From Arthonia radiata (lineage: Eukaryota > Ascomycota > Arthoniomycetes > Arthoniales > Arthoniaceae), in contig PSQN01000017.1 in assembly GCA_002989075.1 (NCBI GenBank), positions 2,177,453-2,241,452 of the forward strand: DNA of 64,000 nt, given 5' to 3'. Position 1 is the first letter of the stretch, and each line of letters opens with the position of its first letter. Below are positions 26,819 to 52,171 of the stretch, piece after piece. The notes under the pieces are model-generated. The model searched no databases. It was not told the DNA's origin and saw only the letters and a list, made by a program, of their open reading frames with translations. Both the position numbers and the translations under genes were made by a program.

Positions 26819-28417
26819 ATGCCTAACTCCCAATCAATCAGCGGGCGCGTACGGAATCTCGCCAATCTCAGCAAGCCTGATATCCAAATCAACGTAGGAG
26901 ACGATGTGGAGAACGGTCGTAGCTACATCAACAGCTTCACGACTGGCGATAAGATCCAAGGCACCATCTCCATCGCTGCTCCTCACGAAACGCGATTCGA
27001 CCAACTCGAGGTCTCGCTGGTCGGCTCTACGAAATGCTACGTCGACCGCATTAGTCCCTCTGCTGCCATCTCAGCGCGCAGCGAAGCCTTCCAAATGTTC
27101 TTGAAGATGGACTGTCCCATCAACCAGTCCGACATGCCTGGCAATGGCGTGCTAAAGGCTGAGCGTACGTACGATGTTCCCTTCAATTTCGTCGTGCCTG
27201 GATCATTGCCTGGTTCTTGCAAGCACAAGACTTCCAATCCGCAGATCAAAGACTTACACTTGCAATTACCGCCATCCCTAGGTGATCCGGAAATGGCTGG
27301 ACGAGGGTCTCAATTGATGGATGACTGTACACCCGACATGTGCCGGATCTCCTATGCTCTTCGCACTCGTCTCGTGAAGTGGCGCGACGGTGAGAGCAAG
27401 CAGATCATTCTCTCAGATCGCTCGCGCAAGGTCCGCATTGTGCCGGCCATGGCGGAGCAACCACCGATATCAATCGATGAAACAGACGAGGACTACTGCT
27501 TGCGCGCGGAGAAGGGCGTTCGAAAGGGTCTCTTGAAGTCGAAGAGCGGTAGATTGGTCATGGAAGCGTCTCAACCCAAGAGCTTGCACATGCCGGGTCC
27601 CAATGAGGATCACACAGGAGCGACGACCATGGCGTCCGTCCAGCTTCGCTTTGATCCAGCTTGTGAAACCGCGGAGCCTCCCAAGCTTGGCCAGCTGGCG
27701 ACCAAGCTACGAGTTGGCACCTTCTATGCCAGCACACCGCGCGTCAAGATCCCAACAGGAAAGTCAGCCCACATTGACACCACGCAAGGCTTGTACGTGG
27801 ATGTCCTGAATCTTTCTGCTCGATGCCTATCAGGAGCCGAATGGCTGAAGCATGACCCTCACACTGCCAGCAACTCCGCAAGCCTGCGACGGGATTCAGC
27901 AATGTCGATCGGAATGGGAGGCGATGCTGGCTGCCCAGCACCAAGTAGCATCTACAAGTCTCAGCTACCTTTCTACACCGCCCAAGTCCTCGTGCCCATC
28001 TCTCCACCAAAGGGCAGAATACTTGTACCGTCCTTCCAGTCTTGTCTCACAAGCAGAGTCTACATCCTCGAGGTGTCTCTCAGTCTTCCTCAAACCTCCA
28101 GCATCACTCTCAAGCTGCCGCTTCAGGTCACGTCAGAGGGCGGTGCAGCGCCGCCGCCGGACTTTGCAGAGATCGACGATGAGCTTCCAGAGTTTGAGGA
28201 GGTCGACTCAGTTGATCAGTACCTGACGCCTAGGCGCATGTCTTCTCCGGCAGATACAGTGGCTCAGGCTGCAGCACAGCGGACGAATCCACCCCGCCGA
28301 CAAAGCGCGCAGATACTACCCCCACCTGAGTACTCGACCTTTGCTCCAAGGACTGGTGGTGTCATGCGGGCGGAAAATTCACCATCTCTATACCACGCTT
28401 TGAACATGGTCAGATGA
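26819..28417 (+). CDS. arrestin-like protein with a PPEY motif
   Basis: A 532-residue single-exon protein of the fungal arrestin-related type. Such proteins link membrane cargo to the Rsp5 ubiquitin ligase for endocytosis. The N-terminal arrestin domain is visible from PDIQINVGDD through SFTTGDKIQGTISI, FDQLEVSLVGSTKCYV and RTYDVPFNFVVPGSLPGSC. The MCRISYALRTRLVKW strand follows. The C-terminal half has YTAQVLVPISPPKGRILVPS and SSITLKLPLQVTSEGG. Near the C terminus a proline-rich stretch contains PPPEY, a PPxY motif that binds WW domains. It lacks the second PPxY often seen in this family. Substrates cannot be predicted. The ATG at 26819 follows a C/A-rich leader and gives MPNSQSISG. Confidence 0.8.
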   Translation: MPNSQSISGRVRNLANLSKPDIQINVGDDVENGRSYINSFTTGDKIQGTISIAAPHETRFDQLEVSLVGSTKCYVDRISPSAAISARSEAFQMFLKMDCPINQSDMPGNGVLKAERTYDVPFNFVVPGSLPGSCKHKTSNPQIKDLHLQLPPSLGDPEMAGRGSQLMDDCTPDMCRISYALRTRLVKWRDGESKQIILSDRSRKVRIVPAMAEQPPISIDETDEDYCLRAEKGVRKGLLKSKSGRLVMEASQPKSLHMPGPNEDHTGATTMASVQLRFDPACETAEPPKLGQLATKLRVGTFYASTPRVKIPTGKSAHIDTTQGLYVDVLNLSARCLSGAEWLKHDPHTASNSASLRRDSAMSIGMGGDAGCPAPSSIYKSQLPFYTAQVLVPISPPKGRILVPSFQSCLTSRVYILEVSLSLPQTSSITLKLPLQVTSEGGAAPPPDFAEIDDELPEFEEVDSVDQYLTPRRMSSPADTVAQAAAQRTNPPRRQSAQILPPPEYSTFAPRTGGVMRAENSPSLYHALNMVR

Positions 28418-35136: not shown

Positions 35137-35664
35137 TCAGTGAAGCTTTGCGTGCTCATTGTTGCGAACACTGTCTTCCCATTGATTCGCAGTTCGAAGT
35201 GTCAGACCGCCGTGCATCCATTTCGCCGCTTTCCATAAGACCGCCATCGCCCCCACGATCGCCGACACAATGATGAATACGATCGTTGTGCCACAGAGCA
35301 GGCTATAAAAGCTAAAAAGGACTCCGAACGCAAACGACGATATGTATTCCTCCCACGTCTTGGGCGAGTCGTCGAAGTGATATCGAAACATCTCCCGTGC
35401 CTGGTCCACGCACGGGAATATTAGACCGGTGCAAATTGCAAGGAGAAATACTCCTCCAGCGAGATTGAAAATGGCGATGACAATCTGAGCGCTGATGCTG
35501 TTATCATCAGAACTTCTGGGCCGATTCGCATTCTTATGTTCACGTAATGGTTCTCGAAAGCGCACCTCCAGGTCCACACAGTAGCTACGTGGTATCGAAG
35601 CTGTCGAGGCCGAGGCCGAGGCTTGGTTGCCTGGCCACGATGGGGTGGCGAGCTTGGGTGGCAT
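35137..35664 (-). CDS. cluster paralogue 1: two-helix membrane protein, divergent copy
   Basis: The first and most diverged of five tandem paralogues; no known family is recognised. It has 175 residues in a single exon. Where other copies have PPxY plus DVEMQ, this one has IPRSYCVDLEV, so the motif is lost. The first hydrophobic segment is about residues 60-85 (AIFNLAGGVFLLAICTGLIF). The paralogue loop signature is present in weakened form as FRYHFDDSPKTW. A second long hydrophobic stretch follows at about 110-143 (SLLCGTTIVFIIVSAIVGAM). The C-terminal tail is short and polar. The ATG at 35664 opens MPPKLATPSWPG. The 13-bp upstream element lies 207 bp before it. Confidence 0.6.
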   Translation of the reverse strand: MPPKLATPSWPGNQASASASTASIPRSYCVDLEVRFREPLREHKNANRPRSSDDNSISAQIVIAIFNLAGGVFLLAICTGLIFPCVDQAREMFRYHFDDSPKTWEEYISSFAFGVLFSFYSLLCGTTIVFIIVSAIVGAMAVLWKAAKWMHGGLTLRTANQWEDSVRNNEHAKLH

Positions 35665-35870
35665 ATTTTGGCTTCGAAAGGTCGAGGTTGGTGGTTGAAC
35701 GCGATACTTGGTCTGAATGAACCTCAGTCTTGGGGCGAGATGGTTAGCGCCTAGAATCTTGCGTGTCTAGCAGTGAAGACTTCGTGGAGAAAATTCGACG
35801 GGGAAGGTATGTGAGAGAAAAGGCGACGGTGAAGGTATGTGAAAGTCCACGTCAGAGCGAGACTTTCGCT

Positions 35871-35883
35871 AATACTGACTTCA
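35871..35883 (-). promoter_or_regulatory. shared upstream element, copy 1
   Basis: In gene orientation it reads TGAAGTCAGTATT. It lies 207 bp upstream of the ATG of cluster paralogue 1. Near-identical words sit 185-196 bp before three other paralogues. Confidence 0.45.
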
Positions 35884-36153
35884 TCTACCGTCCTTCCTTC
35901 AGTGGCGAAGTCATTTCAGCCGCCGAACTCGCACGAAAAAGGAAGTCGCGATAGTGAGACGAATACAGTCTCCAAATACTCAAGCGCCAGATCATTCGCA
36001 CGATAAGTACAGACTTCTGAGACAAGTACGTTTCGGGCCTGTTGAGTTAGACCAGATTTGCCCGTTGCACATGCTATCGACTTAATCACGAGCATTTCGA
36101 CACTCTCCCGGCCGTCTCAAGCTGCGAACATGTTGGGGCGTCCAGCCACCAAA

Positions 36154-36693
36154 CTACGACTTCCAGAAATAGAGGTCTCTCCAGGTATATCTCTTTTGAG
36201 GCACGTCGCACCTCATACCAAACTCGATATTGTCCTCTGGAACGACCTCCCGCTTTCGAGCCTTTATGCACGTTCGTGCGGTTTTGCATATCCAAGAAAT
36301 TCCTTCCCGAAGGCCTGTGCCCACCTCAAATAGAATCAAGCCGATGGTCGTGACGACGAGGCTTGCTAGGAGCAAGGCGATGAAGCTGATGAGTCCTCCA
36401 GAGAAGAAGTACAATGCGGATACGATCCAAGGCCGCGGTGAGCCGTCGAAGGCAGATCGAAAGCAGCTCAATGCCCCATGCGCCAGAGTCCATGCCAAGT
36501 AGCAGCATAGGACGAAGATGAACGCTGCGATGAACAGGAACACGGTGCCGCCCAAGATGACAAGTGGTATAAAAGCGACCATCGGCATGTCGTCAGCAGT
36601 TCGTTTCGGTCTCGGTTGAATGCTGCTCTCTGTCGCTGATTGCTGTTGCATCTCGATATCTCCGGAGTGGCTAGAAAGAGGCGTTGAAGACAT
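36154..36693 (-). CDS. cluster paralogue 2: two-helix membrane protein with long C-terminal tail
   Basis: A member of the tandem family, 179 residues from the ATG at 36693 (the frame stays open to an ATG at 36819). The start MSSTPLSSHSGDIEMQQQ keeps the acidic xDIEMQ motif but has lost PPxY. Hydrophobic segment one is IPLVILGGTVFLFIAAFIFV, running on through LCCYLAW. The loop signature is CFRSAFDGSPRPW. Segment two is SFIALLLASLVVTTIGLILF. The C-terminal tail is long and basic. It ends with KRYTWRDLYFWKS, a motif whose twin survives out of frame behind paralogue 3. No function is known; a two-helix membrane protein with a cytosolic N terminus is inferred. Confidence 0.65.
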   Translation of the reverse strand: MSSTPLSSHSGDIEMQQQSATESSIQPRPKRTADDMPMVAFIPLVILGGTVFLFIAAFIFVLCCYLAWTLAHGALSCFRSAFDGSPRPWIVSALYFFSGGLISFIALLLASLVVTTIGLILFEVGTGLREGISWICKTARTCIKARKREVVPEDNIEFGMRCDVPQKRYTWRDLYFWKS

Positions 36694-36877
36694 CTTGAAG
36701 TATGTGCCGGATGTCGACGGAGAGTCAATGTATTCTGGTGCTGAATCAAGATTGGGGCTTTCGATGCTTGCTGTGAGAAGGTTGGGAAGATCTTTCTGGC
36801 GGTCTGAAGATTTTCGCATTCGCGAGAAACGACGCGTAGTTACTAGGCCCTGTCAAAGCGCTTGATAGTGTTGGCAT

Positions 36878-36890
36878 AATACTGACCTCA
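36878..36890 (-). promoter_or_regulatory. shared upstream element, copy 2
   Basis: Gene-orientation sequence TGAGGTCAGTATT, 185 bp upstream of the ATG of cluster paralogue 2. A CCAAGGCC-rich flank follows on the distal side, resembling the CCAAGGC word near copies 4 and 5. Confidence 0.45.
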
Positions 36891-37281
36891 CTGATGGCCT
36901 TGGCCTTGGCGAAAGATGGCAGACGCTGCGCACCGTACTTTAAAGGACTGCAGACGATACAGGAAAGTTATGCTAACGGCATTGATAATACGCAGTGGAC
37001 GATTAGCGATGCAAGTGTTTTCAGGCGGCATATGCATCGCTTCTAGGCCTGATATGTGCGCAGATGCGGGTGTCTTCCGATTCATGAACTCGCTCTTTCA
37101 GTATGCGCCATCGTATTGCTTACACAGTATTGGTGGTCTGAGCTGGTCGTCAAGCGTCCAATCGCTCGATTCTCCTTCAAGTCCAGACTCAAGTCGCTGA
37201 CTCCTCTTGAGCGGTAGCAGGGCGTCGGGCTCAACCATGCTGGGCGCCGAGCTTACATGACACCAAATGCCCGTCAAACTG

Positions 37282-37326
37282 GACCTCCCAGGGGAAAATG
37301 TCCCTCCAAGCATATCTCCTCTTAGG
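37282..37326 (-). pseudogene. out-of-frame C-terminal remnant of cluster paralogue 3
   Basis: One base after the stop codon, the +1 frame reads PKRRYAWRDIFPWEV. This matches the paralogue 2 ending QKRYTWRDLYFWKS at most positions. It looks like the ancestral C terminus, now disconnected by a small frame change. Confidence 0.55.
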
Positions 37327-37327
37327 G

Positions 37328-37828
37328 CTAGCTAGCTTGACCACCAGCCTCAACATCTTCCTCTTGAACGATTGTTCGGCGTCGGCTCTCCATGCGCGCT
37401 CGTATAGCGTTGTAGATCCAGCGACCTCCGAAATAGACACCCGTGCCGACCGCTCCGAGAAGGGCACCAACCATGAGCAACAGAGCACCACTGGCAAACA
37501 AGGTGAGAGTGCCCTTGAATATGCCACCCAAGACCGAGTAGGCGGAATCTGTCCGAGGTCGCGGTTCTCCGTTGAAGGCATACTGAATGCATTCAGAGGT
37601 CGCTTTCCATCCTATGCCGGCCAGCCAAAGGGACAGTACGAACGCGAAGTTGCCCGGGGGGAGAAATGTGATGGTGAGCATGATTCCGAAGCCGATTTTT
37701 TCACAGAGAGACGTCTCTGGCTCATATTTACGAGGAGCGATGTTGATACCGCGGCCGCCTTCGATGTGCAAAACTGGCTGCATCTCCACATCCTCCGAGT
37801 AACTTGGTGGCGCCGTTGAGGAGGCCAT
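37328..37828 (-). CDS. cluster paralogue 3: PPSY two-helix membrane protein, shortened C terminus
   Basis: A member of the tandem family, 166 residues from the ATG at 37828 (an in-frame ATG lies at 37864). The start MASSTAPPSYSEDVEMQP has both the PPxY motif and the DVEMQ motif. Segment one is GIMLTITFLPPGNFAFVLSL. The loop reads CIQYAFNGEPRPR, with Arg replacing the usual Trp. Segment two is TLFASGALLLMVGALLGAVG. The basic tail ARMESRRRTIVQEEDVEAGG then stops. Just past the stop, in the +1 frame, a piece similar to paralogue 2's C terminus remains. This copy therefore appears truncated by a frame change. Its product may still insert in membranes. Confidence 0.65.
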   Translation of the reverse strand: MASSTAPPSYSEDVEMQPVLHIEGGRGINIAPRKYEPETSLCEKIGFGIMLTITFLPPGNFAFVLSLWLAGIGWKATSECIQYAFNGEPRPRTDSAYSVLGGIFKGTLTLFASGALLLMVGALLGAVGTGVYFGGRWIYNAIRARMESRRRTIVQEEDVEAGGQAS

Positions 37829-38029
37829 TGTGGTTGTTGTCCGGATATCGGGTCGCTTGAACACCAGCTAGAATTTTGTAAGTTTTTGGTGTACGCTGAA
37901 TGCAGTTGTGTTTAATACCTGGCTGTATTTTCGTGCTGATGGCGGATCAAGGAGCCGATGCAGGGCGAAAAGCGCAAAGATGTAGACCGTGGCAGAGCGT
38001 TGTTTTCATACTATACAATATTGACATCA

Positions 38030-38042
38030 GATACTGTCAAAG
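38030..38042 (-). promoter_or_regulatory. possible degenerate upstream element, copy 3
   Basis: A word GATACTGTCAAAG (plus strand) lies 202 bp before the ATG of paralogue 3, where the others carry AATACTGACTTCA. Eight of 13 positions agree; homology is suggested mainly by position. Confidence 0.2.
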
Positions 38043-38241
38043 CATTGCGCGATAGTAGAGCAGGAAAGAACCACGCGGTATGCCAAGCCATTGAGGTAGG
38101 TCTGCTAGTACGAAATAAACCTCATCTTCGTGACCTGATCTGACGGACTTGGATGGTGTAGCACGCACTACACAAGAGTACAACGAGTGATATCTCTCGA
38201 CTGACCCCCACCAGCACACCCGAACGACTGGAGAATTCTGT

Positions 38242-38715
38242 TCAATTTGCTGGCTCCTCTTCAGCAGCCGCAGCAGCAGCAGCAGAGCGTCGCACTACCA
38301 GTCGCGTCTTCGTAGCCTGAAAGATAGGATAGATGCACTGTCCAAGACCCCACAATCCCGCTACTAGCACGCAAGCCACCCCAGCTCCGATTGCCAAGGA
38401 GACAATGCAAACGAAGAATCCCCACAAGAACGTCAATGGGGAATCAATCCAAGGCCTCTCCGGTGGGCCTTTGAATGCAGACCTCAACTCGCTCCATGCC
38501 TCCTGCGCTGCGAGAGAGAACAAGACGATGAGTAGTAGGAAGACGAATATCCATGCGACGAAGATCGAAACTACGGCGCAGATATTGCCGCAAGCTGTCA
38601 TATCTGGCCATGGTTTGCAGGAAGAGGCCTTGGGGCTGCGAAAGGCGGTTGGGTTGTTAAGCGGCTGCATCTCGACGTCCGCAGTGGAGTAGGTGGGCGG
38701 CGTTGTCGGAGGCAT
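38242..38715 (-). CDS. cluster paralogue 4: PPTY two-helix membrane protein
   Basis: A member of the tandem family, 157 residues from the ATG at 38715; the frame is open to an ATG at 38865, but homology begins at MPPTTPPTYSTADVEMQP. PPxY and DVEMQ are both intact. After a polar linker comes KPWPDMTACGNICAVVSIFV, very close to paralogue 5. Hydrophobic segment one continues through WIFVFLLLIVLFSLAA. The loop signature is ELRSAFKGPPERPW. Segment two is FFVCIVSLAIGAGVACVLVA. The tail is basic and ends in a run of eight alanines encoded by a GCN repeat, then EEEPAN. It is the copy most similar to paralogue 5, so these two are probably the youngest duplicates. Confidence 0.68.
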   Translation of the reverse strand: MPPTTPPTYSTADVEMQPLNNPTAFRSPKASSCKPWPDMTACGNICAVVSIFVAWIFVFLLLIVLFSLAAQEAWSELRSAFKGPPERPWIDSPLTFLWGFFVCIVSLAIGAGVACVLVAGLWGLGQCIYPIFQATKTRLVVRRSAAAAAAAEEEPAN

Positions 38716-38909
38716 TATGAACACGTGTCGGTCGTTTGGTTGTCTGAATTGTAGTGCTTCTGAGTTGTGATGGTAGTTGAGTCGCGAGTGCAGATGCTGT
38801 TGATGACGGTAGAAAGCTTGCTGATAACCCTCTAGGTCAGGCCAACGAGTCAAGGAAGTGGCCAAGTTTGTCCAAAGGTTTGCCTATCTAGCGTCTACTT
38901 CGTTCACCT

Positions 38910-38922
38910 AATACTGACTTCA
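38910..38922 (-). promoter_or_regulatory. shared upstream element, copy 4
   Basis: Gene-orientation TGAAGTCAGTATT, 195 bp upstream of the ATG of paralogue 4. Similarity to the copy before paralogue 5 extends to about 38974, through GCCTTGGCAT and ACCGAAA words. Confidence 0.5.
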
Positions 38923-39150
38923 CCTAGGTTAGGCCTTCCAAATTTGCCTTGGCATGGCACGTCGAGACCGAAAATTCACTAGTCAGGGGATCTCGGGCGC
39001 CTTCGACGTGCGGCACGAGCTCAGCCACTGAGACGGTCGGACACTTATTCAACGTTGCCCACGTGCTGTGTGGATGGTGAAGCGGGTGCCGCGGAAGTTC
39101 ATAGCGCGCAGGATTTTGTGGGATATCATTCAGCCTGTCCGCAGCCGTCC

Positions 39151-39618
39151 TCAGGCCCCAGTATCATCCTCCGCTTGACAAATATTCCCACGTCGCATCA
39201 GTATAAACATCTTTACAGCTCGACGAATAACGTGCATGCTCTTCCAGAGCCCCCATACACCCAACCCAACCAAGCAAAGAACCCCAGCACCAAGCACCAA
39301 GGCAATAAGCCCAACGCCGATCCCGTAAAAGAATACAACCGTTGCCTCCGTCCAAGGTCTACCGACCGGACCGCTGAAGGTATATTGGAAAGCTCGCAAC
39401 GCCTCTTGCCCGGCCATGACAGTCAGAGCACTGCCTAGGACGAAGAAACTGCTCCAAGCGACCAATATTGAGACTGCGGCGCAAATGTTTCCGGAGATGC
39501 TCATAGTTGGCCATGGCCTGCTCGCTTTGTTTGCTGGGCTGCCAGGGGTCGACCCAGTGTCTGACAGCTGCATTTCCACGTCCGTGGTGTAGTCAGGCGG
39601 CGATGCTGATGACGGCAT
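39151..39618 (-). CDS. cluster paralogue 5: PPDY two-helix membrane protein
   Basis: A member of the tandem family, 155 residues with the ATG at 39618. The start MPSSASPPDYTTDVEMQLS has PPxY and DVEMQ. RPWPTMSISGNICAAVSILV follows and matches paralogue 4. Hydrophobic segment one runs to VMAGQEA, and the loop signature is AFQYTFSGPVGRPW. Segment two is VGLIALVLGAGVLCLVGLGV. The C terminus is short and basic, then acidic. Single exon. All recognisable family elements are intact, so this is the best reference copy for the family. Confidence 0.68.
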   Translation of the reverse strand: MPSSASPPDYTTDVEMQLSDTGSTPGSPANKASRPWPTMSISGNICAAVSILVAWSSFFVLGSALTVMAGQEALRAFQYTFSGPVGRPWTEATVVFFYGIGVGLIALVLGAGVLCLVGLGVWGLWKSMHVIRRAVKMFILMRRGNICQAEDDTGA

Positions 39619-39813
39619 CGTCGATTGAAGGATATGTTCACCTTAATGGTGATCTAATGAGCTTTGATTAAGTGTTTACAGCGTTGCGGAAGAGTCCAAT
39701 TGGCGTTGATGTTGATGATACATTTGTGGGAAGAATCGAGTTGGGTTGACATGGAAAGTACGTCGAGCAGTCTCTGAGGCTCTACTTTCTCGACACTAGT
39801 TCTGCACCTACCT

Positions 39814-39826
39814 AATGCTGACCTCA
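39814..39826 (-). promoter_or_regulatory. shared upstream element, copy 5
   Basis: Gene-orientation TGAGGTCAGCATT, 196 bp upstream of the ATG of paralogue 5. The similarity with copy 4 continues to about 39880. Confidence 0.5.
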
Positions 39827-40070: not shown

Positions 40071-40862
40071 TCAAGCTTTCTTGGATAGCCTAGCATGATG
40101 AGCATCATATGCGTCCAATACAACCTTCCGAGATTTATCGCTAATCTCTTTCTGGTAGTCACTAACAAGCCAAAGGAGAAGGGCCGCACAAAAGCCACTG
40201 AGCCTGAGCCAATATCTCTTCCGCTTCCAGGATTACATCAACAAGAAGAGAAGCGCTAAACATGGCAATATACATACCATATTATATATGTGGTCGTACA
40301 GCGGATTCTCCGACACAGGCCTGATAAGCTTGGCAGCGTCGTTGGACGCAACGGCGAGTGTCTGCTTGAGGGCCACACTGAACAATACTTTCTGCACGTT
40401 GCTGGTACTTGTAGTCGATTCTTGCAAGCTCGACGGTTCTTTCGTTACGTCTATTGAATTCTTTGGGTTGCGCTCTATGCTTGATTGTATGATCCCACTG
40501 GCTCGACTCAGAGGCTCGGCGAAAGGGCACATATGTTGGCAATGATCGCACGAAGTATGAGTAGCGCACGTCTCGTCGACTAGCAGGTGCCGCGCATGGT
40601 ATTGATGCAAATAAGAGGCGAAATATTCTCGACATTTCTCGCAAGAAATCGTTGACAATGGGGACGGGTTGTGGTGAGCTGAAGTAGCGTTGCGATTTTC
40701 AACATGACACTGGAGAGCATGTCGCCGCCTGTGACATGCCACTGATGTTGATGTACAAGAGGCGCATCCTTCTGAGGGTTGAGGCGCTGGCTGAGCTGAT
40801 GATGCTCTCCGGTCGTCCCAATCTGGCGGAGGGCAAGGCGACGTTCCCACTGGAATATGCAT
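40071..40862 (-). CDS. unrecognised Cys/His-rich protein
   Basis: A two-exon gene (40278-40862 and 40071-40151; donor GTATGT, acceptor CTACCAG, phase 0) encoding 221 residues. I do not recognise it. The N-terminal half is rich in paired cysteines and histidines: CASC, a CHRRRHALQCH piece, then SCEKCREYF, HQYHARH, and SCDHCQHMC. This spacing could bind zinc in two sites, but it fits no finger type I know. The middle is S/T rich, and the second exon gives a charged end (KEISDKSRKVVLDAYDAHHA). If the intron is not removed the frame ends in a hydrophobic piece instead, which looks like an artefact. It lies inside the run of minus-strand membrane-protein genes but shares no motif with them. Confidence 0.5.
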
Positions 40863-41361: not shown

Positions 41362-42228
41362 TCAAACTATGTTCCCACCTATATTGGCGTAAATCAACCG
41401 GAGCCGCCGGTCCTGCATCCCATAAGCAATTGCAAAGAGGGTGACTAGAGCCACCACCATTGCAATGCCAGCAAGCCAAAGTAATATCTCCCGTCGAAGC
41501 CGGTGCCATAGTACCAAGTCGAATACTGTAGCGAGGATGATGATGACCACGACATAAATATCGATGAGGTTCTCGCCGCCATTCGCTTGCGACTCAATAT
41601 GCTTCCTGGCGCTCTCAGCTGTGGTTGTTTTCTTCACATTGCGGGCACTAGAGCTTTTTGACGTTGAGGGCCCTGCCGTAGTTGTGTTCAACGGGGAAGC
41701 GGTTGCCTTGGGCGCGTTACCAGCTGCTGAGGCGGGTGCACCGGCATACGCGTTGTCTGCAAGGGTAGCGTTCAAGCCAGCGTCTACGTTGCTTCCGCCA
41801 GGCTCGCTATCAGCGTCGGCAAATTTGGTATCGCGACGCTGCTGCTCAACCGCAAGTCTGGATGCAGCAGTAGCGAGACCCGAGCTACGATGTTGGGAGG
41901 TATAGTGTGCTTCTTTGGATCTCGGTGCGCCAGTCGCAAAGGAGGAATTGCGATCATTAGAGGTCACTGGGACTCCACTAATCACTTTTGAAGGCTCCGG
42001 GCGGTTGGCAGAAATGTATACACTGCCGTCAAAGCTCATGCGACCCGTCGGAGTGATGCGGTATGGCTGCCGAATTGAAGCGAGATCGGAGTATGGCTCA
42101 GTTGCGCGGGGCTGGGCAGATTCCCTCTCCAATGCAGCTGCAACTTCCAATGGGATACGCATGCTGCTCGATTCCGTGTTCGTCGAATACTGAGTGCTGC
42201 TTATGTGAGGACCTGTGTCGCTGGGCAT
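41362..42228 (-). CDS. unrecognised protein with C-terminal membrane helices
   Basis: An open frame of 288 residues from the ATG at 42228 (MPSDTGPHISS); it stays open upstream to an ATG at 42387. The first 200 residues are S/T/A/N-rich and look disordered. The C terminus holds two adjacent hydrophobic segments, DIYVVVIIILATVFDLVL and ILLWLAGIAMVVALVTLFAI, joined by a basic turn (WHRLRRE). A short tail ends YANIGGNIV. This is a tail-anchored or hairpin layout with a large cytosolic N-terminal part. No PPxY motif is present. It shares gene direction and layout (disordered head, membrane tail) with its neighbours at 42.5 and 43.5 kb, but no clear sequence identity. Confidence 0.5.
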   Translation of the reverse strand: MPSDTGPHISSTQYSTNTESSSMRIPLEVAAALERESAQPRATEPYSDLASIRQPYRITPTGRMSFDGSVYISANRPEPSKVISGVPVTSNDRNSSFATGAPRSKEAHYTSQHRSSGLATAASRLAVEQQRRDTKFADADSEPGGSNVDAGLNATLADNAYAGAPASAAGNAPKATASPLNTTTAGPSTSKSSSARNVKKTTTAESARKHIESQANGGENLIDIYVVVIIILATVFDLVLWHRLRREILLWLAGIAMVVALVTLFAIAYGMQDRRLRLIYANIGGNIV

Positions 42229-42504: not shown

Positions 42505-43041
42505 TCAATAATGCCCGTCCCTCCGACCTGGCTCCTGTAATCTGTGGCGGAATGCCTCCTTCCCGGCCCCGCATCCAACACAGCAGCCAATGACTCCTAG
42601 GAGAGCGAAGGGCACAGATCCTAGGAGCAGAAAGATGCTACCGAGGATGAAGTCGAGGTAGTGTTCTTCATCTCCTTGTACGACGCGATGTATCAGATAC
42701 ACGGCTGGAGCGGCGAGGCCAAGAGCCACGACCATGGATGCTATCGCTAGTGGGAAAGGTGATTTGATTCCTCTCTGCTGTGTGCGAAGCTCTGAGGCTG
42801 GCTGATCCCGCCGCACTGGACGTGGCTCTGCGTTGTTGGCGGCGGCGCGTGAAGGAAGGTGATCGATGGTGATGGTCAAGTTGCCTTCGTTGTCGTAGTG
42901 TGTTCGAGCGGCTGGCGGTGAGTCGTTGGCTTGGTTTATCAGGGCTGACGCTGTCACGTACGAAGGTGGAGGCCGTTGGGGTAGAGTGTATCGTGGTGGA
43001 TCTTCACGTGCTGAGTAGAGCGGGAGAGTCGTGTCGGACAT
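42505..43041 (-). CDS. unrecognised two-helix membrane protein with PPRY and PPSY motifs
   Basis: A 178-residue frame from the ATG at 43041 (the frame remains open to 43287). The start MSDTTLPLYSAREDPPRYTL contains PPRY. About ten residues later RPPPSYVTASA gives a second PPxY. Two PPxY motifs close together are typical of WW-domain ligands. Hydrophobic segments are FPLAIASMVVALGLAAPAVY and YLDFILGSIFLLLGSVPFAL, the latter running on into LGVIGCCVGCGAGKEAF. The protein ends in a short basic tail. It shows no F-x-G-x-P-x-R-P-W loop, so it is not an obvious member of the five-copy family, yet it has the same design. Function unknown. Confidence 0.58.
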   Translation of the reverse strand: MSDTTLPLYSAREDPPRYTLPQRPPPSYVTASALINQANDSPPAARTHYDNEGNLTITIDHLPSRAAANNAEPRPVRRDQPASELRTQQRGIKSPFPLAIASMVVALGLAAPAVYLIHRVVQGDEEHYLDFILGSIFLLLGSVPFALLGVIGCCVGCGAGKEAFRHRLQEPGRRDGHY

Positions 43042-43476
43042 GTTGTTTCGCTTGTAGAAGGCAGCGTTGACGTTCGTGTGCACTGAATGGATAACGGTAG
43101 GTAAGTAGAGGCATCCAAAGGCGACAGTGTTTTTGCTGATGTCTAAGCGCATTGGACATTCAAGCCAAGCCTGCAGCAGTAGATGATGGAACAAAGTCGT
43201 CATTGCCACGATGTCGAACGAAATGCTAGAAAGAGAGAGGATGAAGAGGTGATTTAATCGGGGCAGTGCTATGGTAGAGCCACGCACGAAGACATACCCT
43301 CTTGCAGCGACGCGCTGAATCGTACTGCACCTTGCAGCCTATTTTTCAGGCACTGAGAGTGCATGCACGTAGACTGCACAGACTTTCACGGGATCTGATT
43401 TCCAGCTTTCTGTCAGCTCTATCCTTCTTTTGAGAATCCGAGGGACAGTCCTTCGAGGCATGCTCTGTTCCAGCTT

Positions 43477-43959
43477 TTAGACAATAATACCATTGTATCT
43501 TGCAATACCTATGCCCAAGCAGATCAGAAGCATGGCAACAAACAAGAAACCTAGCACTCCGGTCATCCAACGCATGCAGGGCCGCTCTCGTGGAGCATCA
43601 CGCGATCGTTCCCGTTGTCGCTGCACAGATCGTGGTGAGCTTGCTGTGACTGGCAGAGGTAATTGTCGCGCCGCATGCAGTCCACCTGGTGGGAACACAT
43701 CTGCCGGCGGTTCACGAGCTCGTGGCCATGGCCGAGTAGGGGGGAAAGTTTCGTTATTTCTGTCTGTTGCCGTATGTGGGCGTCGCGAGCCAGCAACGAC
43801 AGTCGAAAACTGCTCTGCTGGCGTCGGAAAATATGGAAGAATGTCGGAATGGCGATTGATATTCGCGACGGTGCAGCCGCGTTGCGGGAGTCGTGCAGGG
43901 CGCACAGGCGGGGCCACATTAGCGTACGAAGGTGGTGGCGTGCGTGAGGGGCCAGGCAT
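43477..43959 (-). CDS. unrecognised tail-anchored protein with PPPSY motif
   Basis: A 160-residue frame from the ATG at 43959 (MPGPSRTPPPSYANVAPP); an ATG at 43992 is also in frame. PPPSY is a PPxY motif within the first 12 residues. The body is rich in P, R, S and A and looks disordered. It ends in one hydrophobic segment, MTGVLGFLFVAMLLICLGIG, and a few residues, which is a tail-anchor layout. The antisense strand also has a long open frame here, so coding is not certain. The PPxY-plus-membrane design repeats that of its neighbours. Confidence 0.48.
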   Translation of the reverse strand: MPGPSRTPPPSYANVAPPVRPARLPQRGCTVANINRHSDILPYFPTPAEQFSTVVAGSRRPHTATDRNNETFPPTRPWPRAREPPADVFPPGGLHAARQLPLPVTASSPRSVQRQRERSRDAPRERPCMRWMTGVLGFLFVAMLLICLGIGIARYNGIIV

Positions 43960-45025
43960 TGCTGTATGAACATCTGTCAGCAGCATGCCCAACTCGATGA
44001 AGCAGCGTCATAATGCAGGAAAGCAAGAGAGAAGGGATGCGAGTTGGCTGCTCCAAGGAAAAGCCTGCATACAGCCACTCCCGACTTTACTTGGGTCAGT
44101 GGAAAGAGGCGTCTGCCGGCCATTGTAATTGGACTCACGTGTCATTTCGAATTGCTTGTGGCGGGCACATGTACGGCCCATTGCACACCAAGGGCACCGC
44201 CATTCAGTAGATGTGGCCATTTCCGTAGACTTGGTAGCTGCCGGTATGTAATGTATGTGATGTGTGAATAATGTACTCGATTGATCAATTTTCGATGGTA
44301 ATGAGAAGGAAGAATAGGAATCAAGGTCTAGCAGAGCGCTTTATCCTTTTGAATCGGAGTTGTTGAGCGGTCCATCTGGTCGCGAACGCTCTGACACAAG
44401 ATGAGGGAGCTCTGACGAGGCGTTTACTTCAAAGAGAGTTTGCGATCTCGACATGCCATCAAGCCAGGCACGCAAAGCAGAGAGGCCTATTAGTCGCTCC
44501 CATTTTTGAGGCTTTGCTACGACATAGCACCTGCGAGCGGTACCCGCAGTGGGCGCACATGATCTTCAAAGCCGCTTGTGCTGTATGAAGATTCAGGTTA
44601 ATGCTTCGACGCATATACCGCTGCGTACTAGACCAATGCAACCCTCAGCACCTGCACGCAGCTTGCTTGATGTACCTTGGGACGGCGCAAGTGAGTCGAT
44701 GAGCGCTCTTGGGCCAGGACCATCTTGAGGGACGGCGTCCAACATTTCTCGCACTCAGACACCAAACCGCGAGCGACCACAGCCTTTCTAGGTGGAGCGT
44801 TTCCCTGGCTTCTCTTTTTTAACGTAGCACAGTCCTATGCGTTCTCGGCGAGAGCAAGCGCGCAACAAGCCTCATGCTCTTCGCTTCTAGCCCCGACCAA
44901 TTCTCTTCCTTGATGAGCTGCGAAATCCATCCTGGGCTGGATGGCTTGCGGTGATCTGGCATAGACGACGCGCCGTTAGGTATTCATAGAACGCGAAGAC
45001 CCGTCTTTCTCAAATCGTGTTCAGC
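43960..45025. other. intergenic
   Basis: About 1.1 kb between the PPPSY gene start and the pex4 stop. It has short frames on both strands only. Confidence 0.4.
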
Positions 45026-48610: not shown

Positions 48611-49261
48611 AAGCCGAAGCTCGGCGGCTTAAGAGTCTGCGCTAATGAAATATTGGTTGACCTACATCAAGGCATGCTTTGGAGAGGAACAACAACATGC
48701 CAGAAGAATAATGTAAGCCAGCTGGGTCAGCGCCAAGCTTCGGAGCTTTCGGCGGTTTAACGCCGTGGTCTCTAGCGTCCGCAAGGGCCGTAGATGATCG
48801 TCGTTGAGATGTCAGTCTGAGTCCGGACAGCGGACGTTGCGATCCGTACCACGTCATCTAATTCAACACCACAGCCCAGTCGCTGTGGTCGCTCTCGTGC
48901 GACCTGTTTTGAAGTCGATTGTAACGCGCCTTTGGGCTGATGACCCTGTTCGGAGGCTCTCTAGAGTAGTCTCCGTTAGGCAAAACTAAACCACAATTTG
49001 CGAAGCGGTATTTCATCGCCATACGTCCACCTGCTCAACCATCCAACGAGCGAGCTATTGAGCCCGGGACGGCTCTGGGAAACAACGCCTCCGCTCAAGT
49101 TGCAAACCCGCCACTGCTGGGATCTACCCATTCTCAAGCGGAGGGTCGACACTACCGGCCGCTGCGCGTGACCCTATACATCATCCTCACGCGCACAAGG
49201 CCTTCAATACACGTCGCCCACCAGTCATGACATTTGCGACCATTTGGGAGGAGTAAAAATC
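48611..49261. promoter_or_regulatory. divergent upstream region, NAD kinase / SYLF protein
   Basis: About 650 bp between divergent start codons. No convincing gene or specific regulatory site was seen. Confidence 0.35.
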
Positions 49262-52171
49262 ATGAGCGCCCCTCAAGGTGGCTCCCAGATCAGCGCAAAG
49301 ACCGGCTCGCCGCGGATAACTTCGGGCTTTTGGGCACGCGCAAAGACTCAGTCCAAGGTCGGTTTCGACAAGCTGTGGGCCACCGCCGACAAGCTGGGCG
49401 ATCCTGTAAACAAACTCTCAAATAAGATTGGCTCGGAAGCTTTTTGGCCCACAACTATCGATAAAGAGTCGGAGAAGGCGGCGCGGATATTGAGGAGCTT
49501 CTGCAAAGACGGCTTTTACGAGGAGGAGGTCACCAAGACGCCCGATGGGCCACAACAAAAGCAGCGAGTGCTCAAGCGTATACCCGCAAGTGTAATTCAG
49601 AATGCGCGAGGCCTTGCCATCTTCACGACCATGCGTACCGGCCTGTGGGTGAGCGGCGCAGGAGGGAGTGGTATCTTGGTTGGCAGAAAAGATGACGGAA
49701 GTTGGAGCCAGCCCTGCGGCATTATGCTCCATACCGCAGGCCTCGGCTTTCTCGTTGGTGTCGACATCTACGACTGTGTCTTGGTTCTGAATACCCCTGA
49801 GGCTCTTGCGGCATTTTCGAGATGGCGGTGCACGGTAGGAGGCGAGATCAGCGCAGTCGCTGGACCTGCAGGAGTCGGTGGAGTACTGGAGACAGAGTTG
49901 CACAAGCGGCAAGCAGCCATATTCACATATCTGAAAAGCAGAGGCTTCTACGCTGGCGTGCAAATCGACGGAACTGTGGTCATCGAGCGGACAGATGAGA
50001 ATGAGCGATTTTATGGCGAGAAAATCTCGGCTAAAGAAATCCTTGCAGGCAGAGCTCAGTCAAGAGAACCAGAACTCAAGATGCTTATGGCGACACTCAA
50101 GGCAGCCGAGGGGGACTCGAAAGTCGATAGTTCGCTACTCCCGAGCGAGCCGCCACCCGCTGACATGCAGGTTGTAGCAGATGGTCAACTTTTTGGCGTA
50201 CCAGATCGTGAAGATCCAGATCCGTACGGTGTACACGCGCTTGAGAAAGAAGGCTTCGTCATCAAAGAAGCCGGTACCCATACACCTGCCGACACAGACC
50301 AATTTGATTTCCACCCTAGTATTACCAGTCCCGTGTATGACACCTTCAGGCGGAGCGGCGATACAATGAGTAGAAGAGGCAGTTGGCGAAGCAGTATCAT
50401 TAGCAGTAGCACGGCAGCCGAACGGGAAAAGGAGCGGGACCGGCCTCGATACGTGACGAACGACTCCGCTACTCAGACGGACTTCCCTCCTGTCAACTTC
50501 CCAAGCCCGAAATCAGCAATGAACGACATCCGCGAGATTAAAGAGGTTTCGCCTACTAGAAGCGCCAGGTCACCGCTTAGTCATGGGCTTGGTATTCAAG
50601 TCGACACAATGCATGACAGAGGTACGCTTGCAGAATCCACGATTTCTAGTCGGGGAGCAAATGAGCTGCCGGGTTCGGCTGAGGCAGGTCAAGAACATGT
50701 CTCCAAGGCACAACCGGCCGAGGACCCGATGTATGAGCAACAGACACCCACTGCTACTTTTCACGATCAACAGGCTATTGCAGGTGCAGTGAAAGAAGTT
50801 CCACCAGAGCCCGAGACTGCGAGTGACTCTGGCTCGGGGAATGACGATGACGATGACGAGGAAGAACCAGTCATCGTGCATGAAGCGCCTGTCGTTCATC
50901 AAGTCTCGCAAGCAGCTCGCCCACAAGTAGTTACGAGGGCGAAAGTGACCACGGTGGCGGTACCTAAGCGTGGGCCAGTAAGTACACTTGTTCAGATCTC
51001 ATTAACACACCCCTCCGTTACCCAATCCGCCGGCGTGACCTCCAGTAACCCACTTTCAACCAGCGTCGACCCCGGGCAAGTGCTCTGCTGACATAGCTAG
51101 CCTCCCACGTTACCCCCTCGTCATCCTGCGCGCAAACGCTCATTTGGCGCAAACAGTGCCCAGACTTCAGACAGTGAAGCGCCTGATAATGCCAGCATTT
51201 CAAGCTTTCGAAGCTCGGGCAAGCCACCGTCAGTACGCTCCAGTCGTGCAAAATCGGGGTCGCGAGAAGATAACGTGTCAACCTCGACGACTGCTGTGCA
51301 AAGTCCTAACCAGACGCCGGCGGAAGAGAAGGCCAATCCTGTGGAGGACGACACAGCAGGCGGGCAAGTCGAGCCCATGCCAGTACGAGGAATGCAACCG
51401 GCCCCTCTAAATTCTACACCAAGGAGTGCGCGTCGTTCAACGGAAGTGTCTCCAGTGGTACGCCCTCGACCCAATATTGCTGCGACAGTACGGCAAAACT
51501 CTGGCTCTGGGTCCGTATCTGCGCTCAAGTCCCGCTTCGAGACCACTAAGAAGACACCGCCACCACCGATTAGCACGACATCAGTTAATAGCCGACCCAC
51601 TTCATCACATTCAAACAGCAACCGCAGCTCGTCGCCGCTGAAGCAATTGTCTACTTACACGACCACAGAAGACGAGCGCAAAGCTAGACGAATAAGCCCG
51701 CTGCCCAGCCCAAGAGCGCCATCACCACTAGGCTCCAAGCCCGATGAAGTAGACGTTTTACCCGGCGCTTTTCCGTCGGATTCGTTTGATGGCGCTTCTG
51801 ACCCAAAGCCTGCGCTCGCCGCTGCAGCAGAGCAACCGCAGCTCAATGGGTTCAGCCGCAGTCCATCACCGACGACTTTAACGGAGGTTGAGCCTCCACG
51901 CAGTCTACGAACAGGTCGTTCGCCGCTGGAACATCTACCAAATGAGCAGAGCAGTACAAACGGGGCATCAAGCGAGGGTGAAGCACCCAATACCGGCGCT
52001 GAACAAGTGACCAGCCCACCAAGATCGCCCAGAAAGGGACCGAGCCTCGTGGGCTTGAGAAATAGCTTACACCCCATGCGAGATGACGATAGCGATATTG
52101 GCAGTCGGAGTCGTAGCATGAGCCCAGTCAAGACCCCGATCAAAGTCGACACGGACGACGACTTCTCCTGA
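49262..52171 (+). CDS. SYLF-domain (Ysc84/SH3YL1-like) protein with long disordered tail
   Basis: A lipid- and actin-binding protein of the Ysc84 type, linked to endocytosis at actin patches. Two exons (49262-50977 and 51101-52171; donor GTAAGT, GCTGACA branch site) join in phase to 928 residues. The SYLF domain covers about 60-270. It has AARILRSFCKDGFYEEE and IQNARGLAIFTTMRTGLWVS, then GSGILVGRKDDGSWSQPCGI and GLGFLVGVDIYDCVLVLN. ISAVAGPAGVGGVLETELHK and a KSRGFYAGVQIDGTVV segment follow. The domain is near the N terminus, and there is no SH3 domain as in yeast Ysc84. Instead a 650-residue S/P/T-rich tail carries acidic runs and, at the splice junction, a proline-rich PPPTLPPR piece that could bind SH3 domains. 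The first in-frame ATG is at 49262. Confidence 0.9.

Follow-up and report, generated by a model that had tools for sequence, protein, structure and literature searches.

Adaptors of the Rsp5/NEDD4 ligases determine which membrane proteins get destroyed, and Tre1/2, Ear1 and Ssh4 are membrane proteins themselves. These three, together with Bsd2, Rcr1/2 and the mammalian NDFIP1/2 and ENTREP, are PPxY proteins that recruit or activate a ligase of the Rsp5/NEDD4 type. Two papers describe Bsd2, Rcr1/2, NDFIP1/2 and ENTREP as membrane proteins (PMC9105457, PMC8811627), and the first of the two provides the precedent for Rsp5 adaptors that are not arrestins (PMC9105457). Yeast Sna3 has two transmembrane (TM) segments and a PPAY motif that binds Rsp5; it is targeted to endosomes in an Rsp5-dependent manner and ubiquitinated for sorting into multivesicular bodies (PMC2171029), and it is said to cooperate with Rsp5 in the sorting of Mup1 (PMC9105457). 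Here we describe five consecutive genes, g1 to g5, in a 64,000-nucleotide stretch of the Arthonia radiata genome (the window, C1:2177453-2241452; the genome comprises 33.5 Mb in 16 contigs). We propose, with belief and doubt evenly balanced, that they form an orphan tandem set of co-regulated two-helix proteins that are exported from the endoplasmic reticulum (ER) and serve as Sna3-like Rsp5 cargo/adaptors.

Like Sna3, the g1-g5 products are small proteins with two TM segments, and those of g3-g5 have a PPxY-bearing tail, which is cytosolic in Sna3 and predicted to be so here. The motif is C-terminal in Sna3 but N-terminal in g3-g5, and g1-g5 differ further in having no Pmp3 match and in carrying an extra D-x-E motif. 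The Cos proteins of S. cerevisiae, which are multigene and subtelomeric, provide a model for the possible job of a locally expanded family, and are set beside g1-g5 by description only. To go by the title of a cited paper, Cos proteins are tetraspans, whereas g1-g5 have two TM segments. The NDFIPs have three TM segments and ENTREP has one (PMC8811627), compared with two in g1-g5. Finally, a D-x-E motif in a cytosolic tail binds Sec24 and acts as an ER-exit signal for coat protein complex II (COPII), as described for yeast Sys1 (PMC3358343). Sys1, however, has four TM segments and carries D-x-E in its C-tail (PMC3358343), whereas g1-g5 have two and carry it in the N-tail, whose cytosolic placement is a prediction.

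The five-gene family

The five genes are intronless, lie on the minus strand between 35137 and 39618, and encode products of 155-179 amino acids (aa).

35137..35664, minus strand: g1, 175 aa, two TM segments; degenerate tail PRSY-CV-DLEVR; loop FDDSPKTW; the most divergent copy
36154..36693, minus strand: g2, 179 aa, two TM segments; tail LSSH-SG-DIEMQ, without PPxY; loop FDGSPRPW; longer C-tail, ending in RYTWRDLYFWKS
37328..37828, minus strand: g3, 166 aa, two TM segments; PPSY-SE-DVEMQ; loop FNGEPRPR
38242..38715, minus strand: g4, 157 aa, two TM segments; PPTY-STA-DVEMQ; loop FKGPPERPW
39151..39618, minus strand: g5, 155 aa, two TM segments; PPDY-TT-DVEMQ; loop FSGPVGRPW

The positions of the open reading frames (ORFs) confirm the number, place and strand of the genes given in the original prediction, made from the sequence alone, and the two hydrophobic segments it assigned to each gene are seen in all five. 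Its loop formula, F-x-G-x-P-x-R-P-W, matches g4 alone when taken literally, but the looser form F-x-[GD]-x-[PV]-(x)-[RK]-x-[WR] is common to all five. The connectors between the helices have 23-32 residues, with the helix borders placed by hand, and the N-terminal tails have 37-58. AlphaFold2, run from the five sequences, places the loop in a long helical hairpin in both g4 (helices 41-81 and 91-153; predicted local distance difference test, pLDDT, 69.5; predicted template modelling score, pTM, 0.42) and g2 (helices 38-83 and 89-150; pLDDT 63.2, pTM 0.31). In these models the loop is short, the N-tails are of low confidence, and overall confidence is low to moderate. Foldseek returned 162 matches at E<=10, with none at E<=0.001 among the best 50 of the 162 and no informative fold match; we draw nothing from this search because of the confidence of the models and because a helix hairpin resembles many things.

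The five genes are paralogues. Smith-Waterman comparisons, with block-shuffled sequences that retain the hydropathy layout as the null, gave z = 2.6-18.5 over the ten pairs, and nine pairs scored above all 200 shuffles. Three neighbouring membrane ORFs compared with g1-g5 as a non-family control gave z from -1.0 to 2.6 (15 comparisons). The exception within the family is the g1-g4 pair, which does not score above all shuffles and whose z of 2.6 equals the top of the control; g1 nevertheless counts as a member because it is linked through g2, g3 and g5. Amino-acid identity over aligned codons is 20-37%, with g4/g5 the closest pair (37%) and g2/g3 having the second-highest shuffle z (15.9). Codon position 2 is more conserved than position 3 in all ten pairs, which fits coding sequence under constraint. 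The NG86 method gave nonsynonymous divergence (dN) of 0.54-1.02 and synonymous divergence (dS) of 1.11-2.73, so the duplications are either old or fast-evolving; YN00 failed for six of the ten pairs. Just beyond the g3 stop (37231-37340, minus strand), another frame reads PKRRYAWRDIFPW, which resembles the g2 end PQKRYTWRDLYFW, and the g3 C-tail looks frameshifted relative to that of g2.

Searches of the organism's own genome with g4, g2, g3 and g5 returned 4, 5, 4 and 4 matches, respectively, all of them cluster members; g1 was not among the queries and was reached by the g2 query only. The alignment of g1-g5 drew 5671 candidates from 5.8 billion proteins, none at E<=0.01, and residues 1-104 of g4 drew 5 candidates in a protein search, none at E<=10; the word filter of these searches (at most 100 words) could let remote or fast-evolving relatives escape. 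A control query, the nearby arrestin-like ORF, found 324 matches among 7996 scored. Among the 120 of these listed, the best four stand at 61-69%, with Coniosporium apollinis at 46% and Lepidopterella palustris at 41%, both Dothideomycete-type fungi. Because near relatives of the source fungus are thinly represented in the database, we treat the absence of g1-g5 relatives as moderate evidence.

A Pfam scan of g1-g5 at E<=1 likewise found no family above its curated cut-off, the best match below it being TauE (E 0.0036, g4). None of the five matched PF01679, the Pmp3/Sna model, which we take to be the family of Sna3, and no model of NDFIP, Rcr or other Pfam-modelled membrane adaptors rose above the cut-off. 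A sequence search of the PDB gave a single irrelevant match (E 8.2). No paper on the family appeared among those listed in searches of the open-licence literature, which is no proof of absence. Two ideas in the original prediction, that the genes match no described family and that they are a locally expanded set, are borne out by these Pfam, protein and own-genome searches, and no characterised family emerged from the profile search. By sequence comparison, then, there is support for g1-g5 being small two-TM proteins of a family that is undescribed and has expanded locally.

Tail motifs and a shared upstream element

Two adjacent motifs stand out in the N-terminal tails.

37799..37810, minus strand: PPSY codons of g3
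38689..38700, minus strand: PPTY codons of g4
39589..39600, minus strand: PPDY codons of g5
39568..39582, minus strand: DVEMQ (D-x-E) of g5, the family's best-conserved five-residue window
38665..38679, minus strand: g4 motif aligned to g5 DVEMQ
37778..37792, minus strand: g3 motif aligned to g5 DVEMQ
36646..36660, minus strand: g2 motif aligned to g5 DVEMQ (DIEMQ)
35560..35574, minus strand: g1 motif aligned to g5 DVEMQ (DLEVR)

PPxY is intact in g3, g4 and g5, where it lies in the non-membrane tail, and degenerate in g1 and g2. At least three of five tails carried PPxY in only 1 of 20,000 trials in which the N-tails were shuffled. PPSY, PPTY or PPDY had been predicted shortly before DVEMQ in three genes, and we find them there in g3, g4 and g5, at a spacing of 2-3 residues; the fourth gene, said to keep DIEMQ only, is g2. 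The fifth, g1, was said to have neither motif. It indeed has no intact one, but PRSY-CV-DLEVR stands at the aligned place and is a degenerate form of both. The emphasis on PPxY also needs shifting: the motif is intact in three of the five genes, but the invariant part of the tail is D-x-E, which had been overlooked.

D[VIL]E[MV] is found in all five genes at the aligned tail position, outside the membrane, and its D and E account for two of the alignment's eight invariant columns. Mean pairwise identity is 0.70 in the DVEMQ window, compared with 0.50 in the best loop window and 0.14 in the adjoining linker. The pattern PPxYxxD[VI]EM has two matches genome-wide, g3 and g5. Because g1 and g2 retain D-x-E although their PPxY is degenerate, D-x-E is suggested to have a role of its own; by analogy with Sys1, we infer that it may be an ER-export signal.

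A second shared feature, absent from the original prediction, lies upstream of the genes. A near-identical element, TGARGTCAGYATTA, is found 197-219 nucleotides before the ATG of g1, g2, g4 and g5, and weakly before g3.

35868..35883, minus strand: upstream element of g1, TGAAGTCAGTATTAGC, -219 from the ATG
36875..36890, minus strand: upstream element of g2, TGAGGTCAGTATTATG, -197 from the ATG
38014..38029, minus strand: weak copy of the upstream element, g3, TGATGTCAATATTGTA, -201 from the ATG, 5 mismatches of 16
38907..38922, minus strand: upstream element of g4, TGAAGTCAGTATTAGG, -207 from the ATG
39811..39826, minus strand: upstream element of g5, TGAGGTCAGCATTAGG, -208 from the ATG

The best common 16-mer of g1, g2, g4 and g5 has 5 summed mismatches, whereas none of 60 genomic nulls had fewer than 12. 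With all five genes included the figure is 10; the lowest values were 17 among 60 dinucleotide shuffles and 16 among 60 genomic nulls. The g3 copy was equalled anywhere within 420 nucleotides in 190 of 2000 genomic stretches, and at the same position in 12 of 2000. Elsewhere in the upstream DNA, the best shared 16-mers at -420..-241 and -180..-1 were matched or beaten by 18 and 17 of 60 nulls, respectively. The exact 14-mer of the element has five sites in the genome, with about one expected by chance and zero for the reversed pattern. Since four of the five sites are concentrated in the cluster, co-regulation is likely; the element is likely a retained regulatory site, with g1-g5 probably under common control.

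The fifth 14-mer site (C12:39471) lies between two ORF pieces and is probably a chance match; the 3-kb locus around it contains nine ORFs of 80 aa or more, and none was seen to be a family member. The two pieces beside it (locus positions about 1187-1996) resemble a UstYa-type protein. Separately, GCCAAGG occurs in three of the five cluster genes (g2, g4 and g5), 211-239 nucleotides before the ATG and shortly upstream of the shared element; GCCARG is the PacC consensus.

A proposed mechanism and its alternatives

What appears to be new in this locus is a family that is built like small membrane Rsp5 cargo/adaptors but matches none of their models, and that has in addition an invariant D-x-E motif and an upstream element in common. 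The genome also encodes what domain matches identify as an Rsp5-like WW-HECT ligase (C12, 872945-874893); the three WW matches span C12:872945-873517, and the HECT pieces come after them at 873832-874893. Homology, architecture, motif conservation, the upstream element and the presence of WW and HECT domains are observed, and our proposal adds to them a presumed topology, COPII and WW binding and an adaptor role. The N-tail would hold two adjacent sorting signals, a D-x-E for ER export in all five proteins and a PPxY ligand for WW domains in three. After leaving the ER in COPII vesicles, the proteins would meet Rsp5 at Golgi, endosomal or plasma membranes. Their ubiquitination would lead to sorting into multivesicular bodies, and partners held by the helix hairpin or by the conserved F-x-[GD]-x-P-type loop would be carried along. 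The g1-g5 proteins may thus act as Sna3-like cargo/adaptors outside the family of Sna3. If so, adaptors of the Rsp5/NEDD4 type would have arisen and diversified anew in one fungal lineage, outside known families, with a bipartite tail that combines ER exit with ligase binding. The PPxY-bearing and PPxY-less copies, most of which have the upstream element in common, would then be a natural test set for recruiters versus decoys.

Several observations weigh against this proposal. PPxY has been lost in two of the five genes (g1 and g2), D-x-E is a very short motif, and the g3 copy of the upstream element is weak. Divergence among the genes is near saturation (dS 1.11-2.73), and no orthologues of g1-g5 were found in the protein searches. 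The charges around the helices are also less telling than the proposal would wish: lysine plus arginine number 2-4 in the adjoining N-tail stretch and 3-5 in the C-tail stretch, and the connector loop has 2-3 of them with 1-6 acids. Because the loop has hardly fewer positive charges than the tails, the positive-inside rule points only weakly to an N-in/C-in topology with both tails cytosolic.

The strongest alternative, which we consider possible but the less probable account, is that the proteins are substrates only. In the three PPxY copies, Rsp5 binding would serve the turnover of the protein itself, and the function in the membrane would be an unrelated one, as structural, transport-accessory or stress-protective hairpins. 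PPxY would tune abundance and be dropped where turnover is unneeded, which agrees with its retention in three of the five genes, compared with all five for D-x-E, the hairpin and the loop, and with the copies without PPxY still being full-length open frames. Nothing decisive speaks against this account; yeast Sna3 is described as both cargo and adaptor (PMC2171029, PMC9105457).

We think it unlikely that PPxY-x2-3-D[VIL]E[MV] is a single extended WW-domain ligand in which D-x-E is unrelated to ER exit. The two motifs are adjacent at near-fixed spacing, as such a ligand would have them, but g2 keeps DIEMQ and g1 keeps DLEV despite a degenerate PPxY, and an extension bound purely by WW domains predicts otherwise. 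Very unlikely, in our judgment, is a decaying lineage-specific array, with relics among the copies and motifs that are inherited remnants: the copies are very divergent (20-37% identity), the g3 C-tail is apparently frameshifted relative to g2 and its upstream element weak, and protein searches found no relatives, but all five frames are full-length and open, codon position 2 outranks position 3 in conservation in ten of ten pairs, and four genes retain the upstream element while similarity in the remaining upstream DNA stays at the level of random genomic stretches.

Neighbouring genes

Three further ORFs near the cluster encode PPxY motifs.

42505..43203, minus strand: neighbouring ORF with PPRY and PPSY, two TM segments; gene start provisional
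43477..43986, minus strand: neighbouring ORF with PPSY, one TM segment; gene start provisional
26819..28417, plus strand: Bul1_C-type arrestin-like ORF with PPEY near the C-terminus, ~7 kb from the cluster

PPxY is present in 114 of the 120 listed relatives of the arrestin-like ORF. Counting ATG-to-stop frames of at least 80 aa, which are not curated genes, six of the 133 ORFs in the window contain PPxY: five with TM segments, at 37.3-44.0 kb (g3-g5 and the two neighbours), and the arrestin-like ORF. In 190 kb of background from the same genome, the motif occurs in 9 of 283 ORFs, three of them with TM segments. The enrichment of PPxY with TM segments is not significant (5/133 vs 3/283, Fisher P = 0.07; 3/131 vs 3/283, P = 0.29, if the family is entered as one), and a functional Rsp5 neighbourhood is for that reason a mere suggestion. 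Local Poisson values of 1e-7 and 2e-4 (three independent events) were post hoc, and we do not claim clustering. It would be quite a long shot to see here a lineage-specific Rsp5-adaptor neighbourhood, in which PPxY recruiters and PPxY-less decoys or brakes of a co-regulated tandem family, alike in hairpin, loop and D-x-E and possibly pairing, jointly set membrane-protein destruction, with a Bul-type arrestin and two more genes for PPxY membrane proteins alongside.

Upstream ORF parts at 41365-42225, 42508-43038 and 43480-43986 were considered as family members and rejected, as no homology to g1-g5 was found. The weak match of 43480-43986 to the family consists of nine proline-rich columns only, and for 42508-43038 the best other match, at E 0.208, does not make a convincing paralogue. 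The ORF adjoining g5 (40100-40862, minus strand) ends, as read by eye, at GTATGT, which resembles a splice donor, and a second exon can plausibly be read, which suggests that it is part of an intron-containing gene; it has no Pfam match.

A Ysc84-domain ORF (49244-51091) and the Bul1_C arrestin-like ORF (26819-28417) flank the cluster, and both families are trafficking or endocytic. Pmp3-domain matches number eight in the same genome, all outside the cluster, and five of these Sna-type matches lie within 10 kb of one another (C11:597584-607298) in an apparent tandem array.

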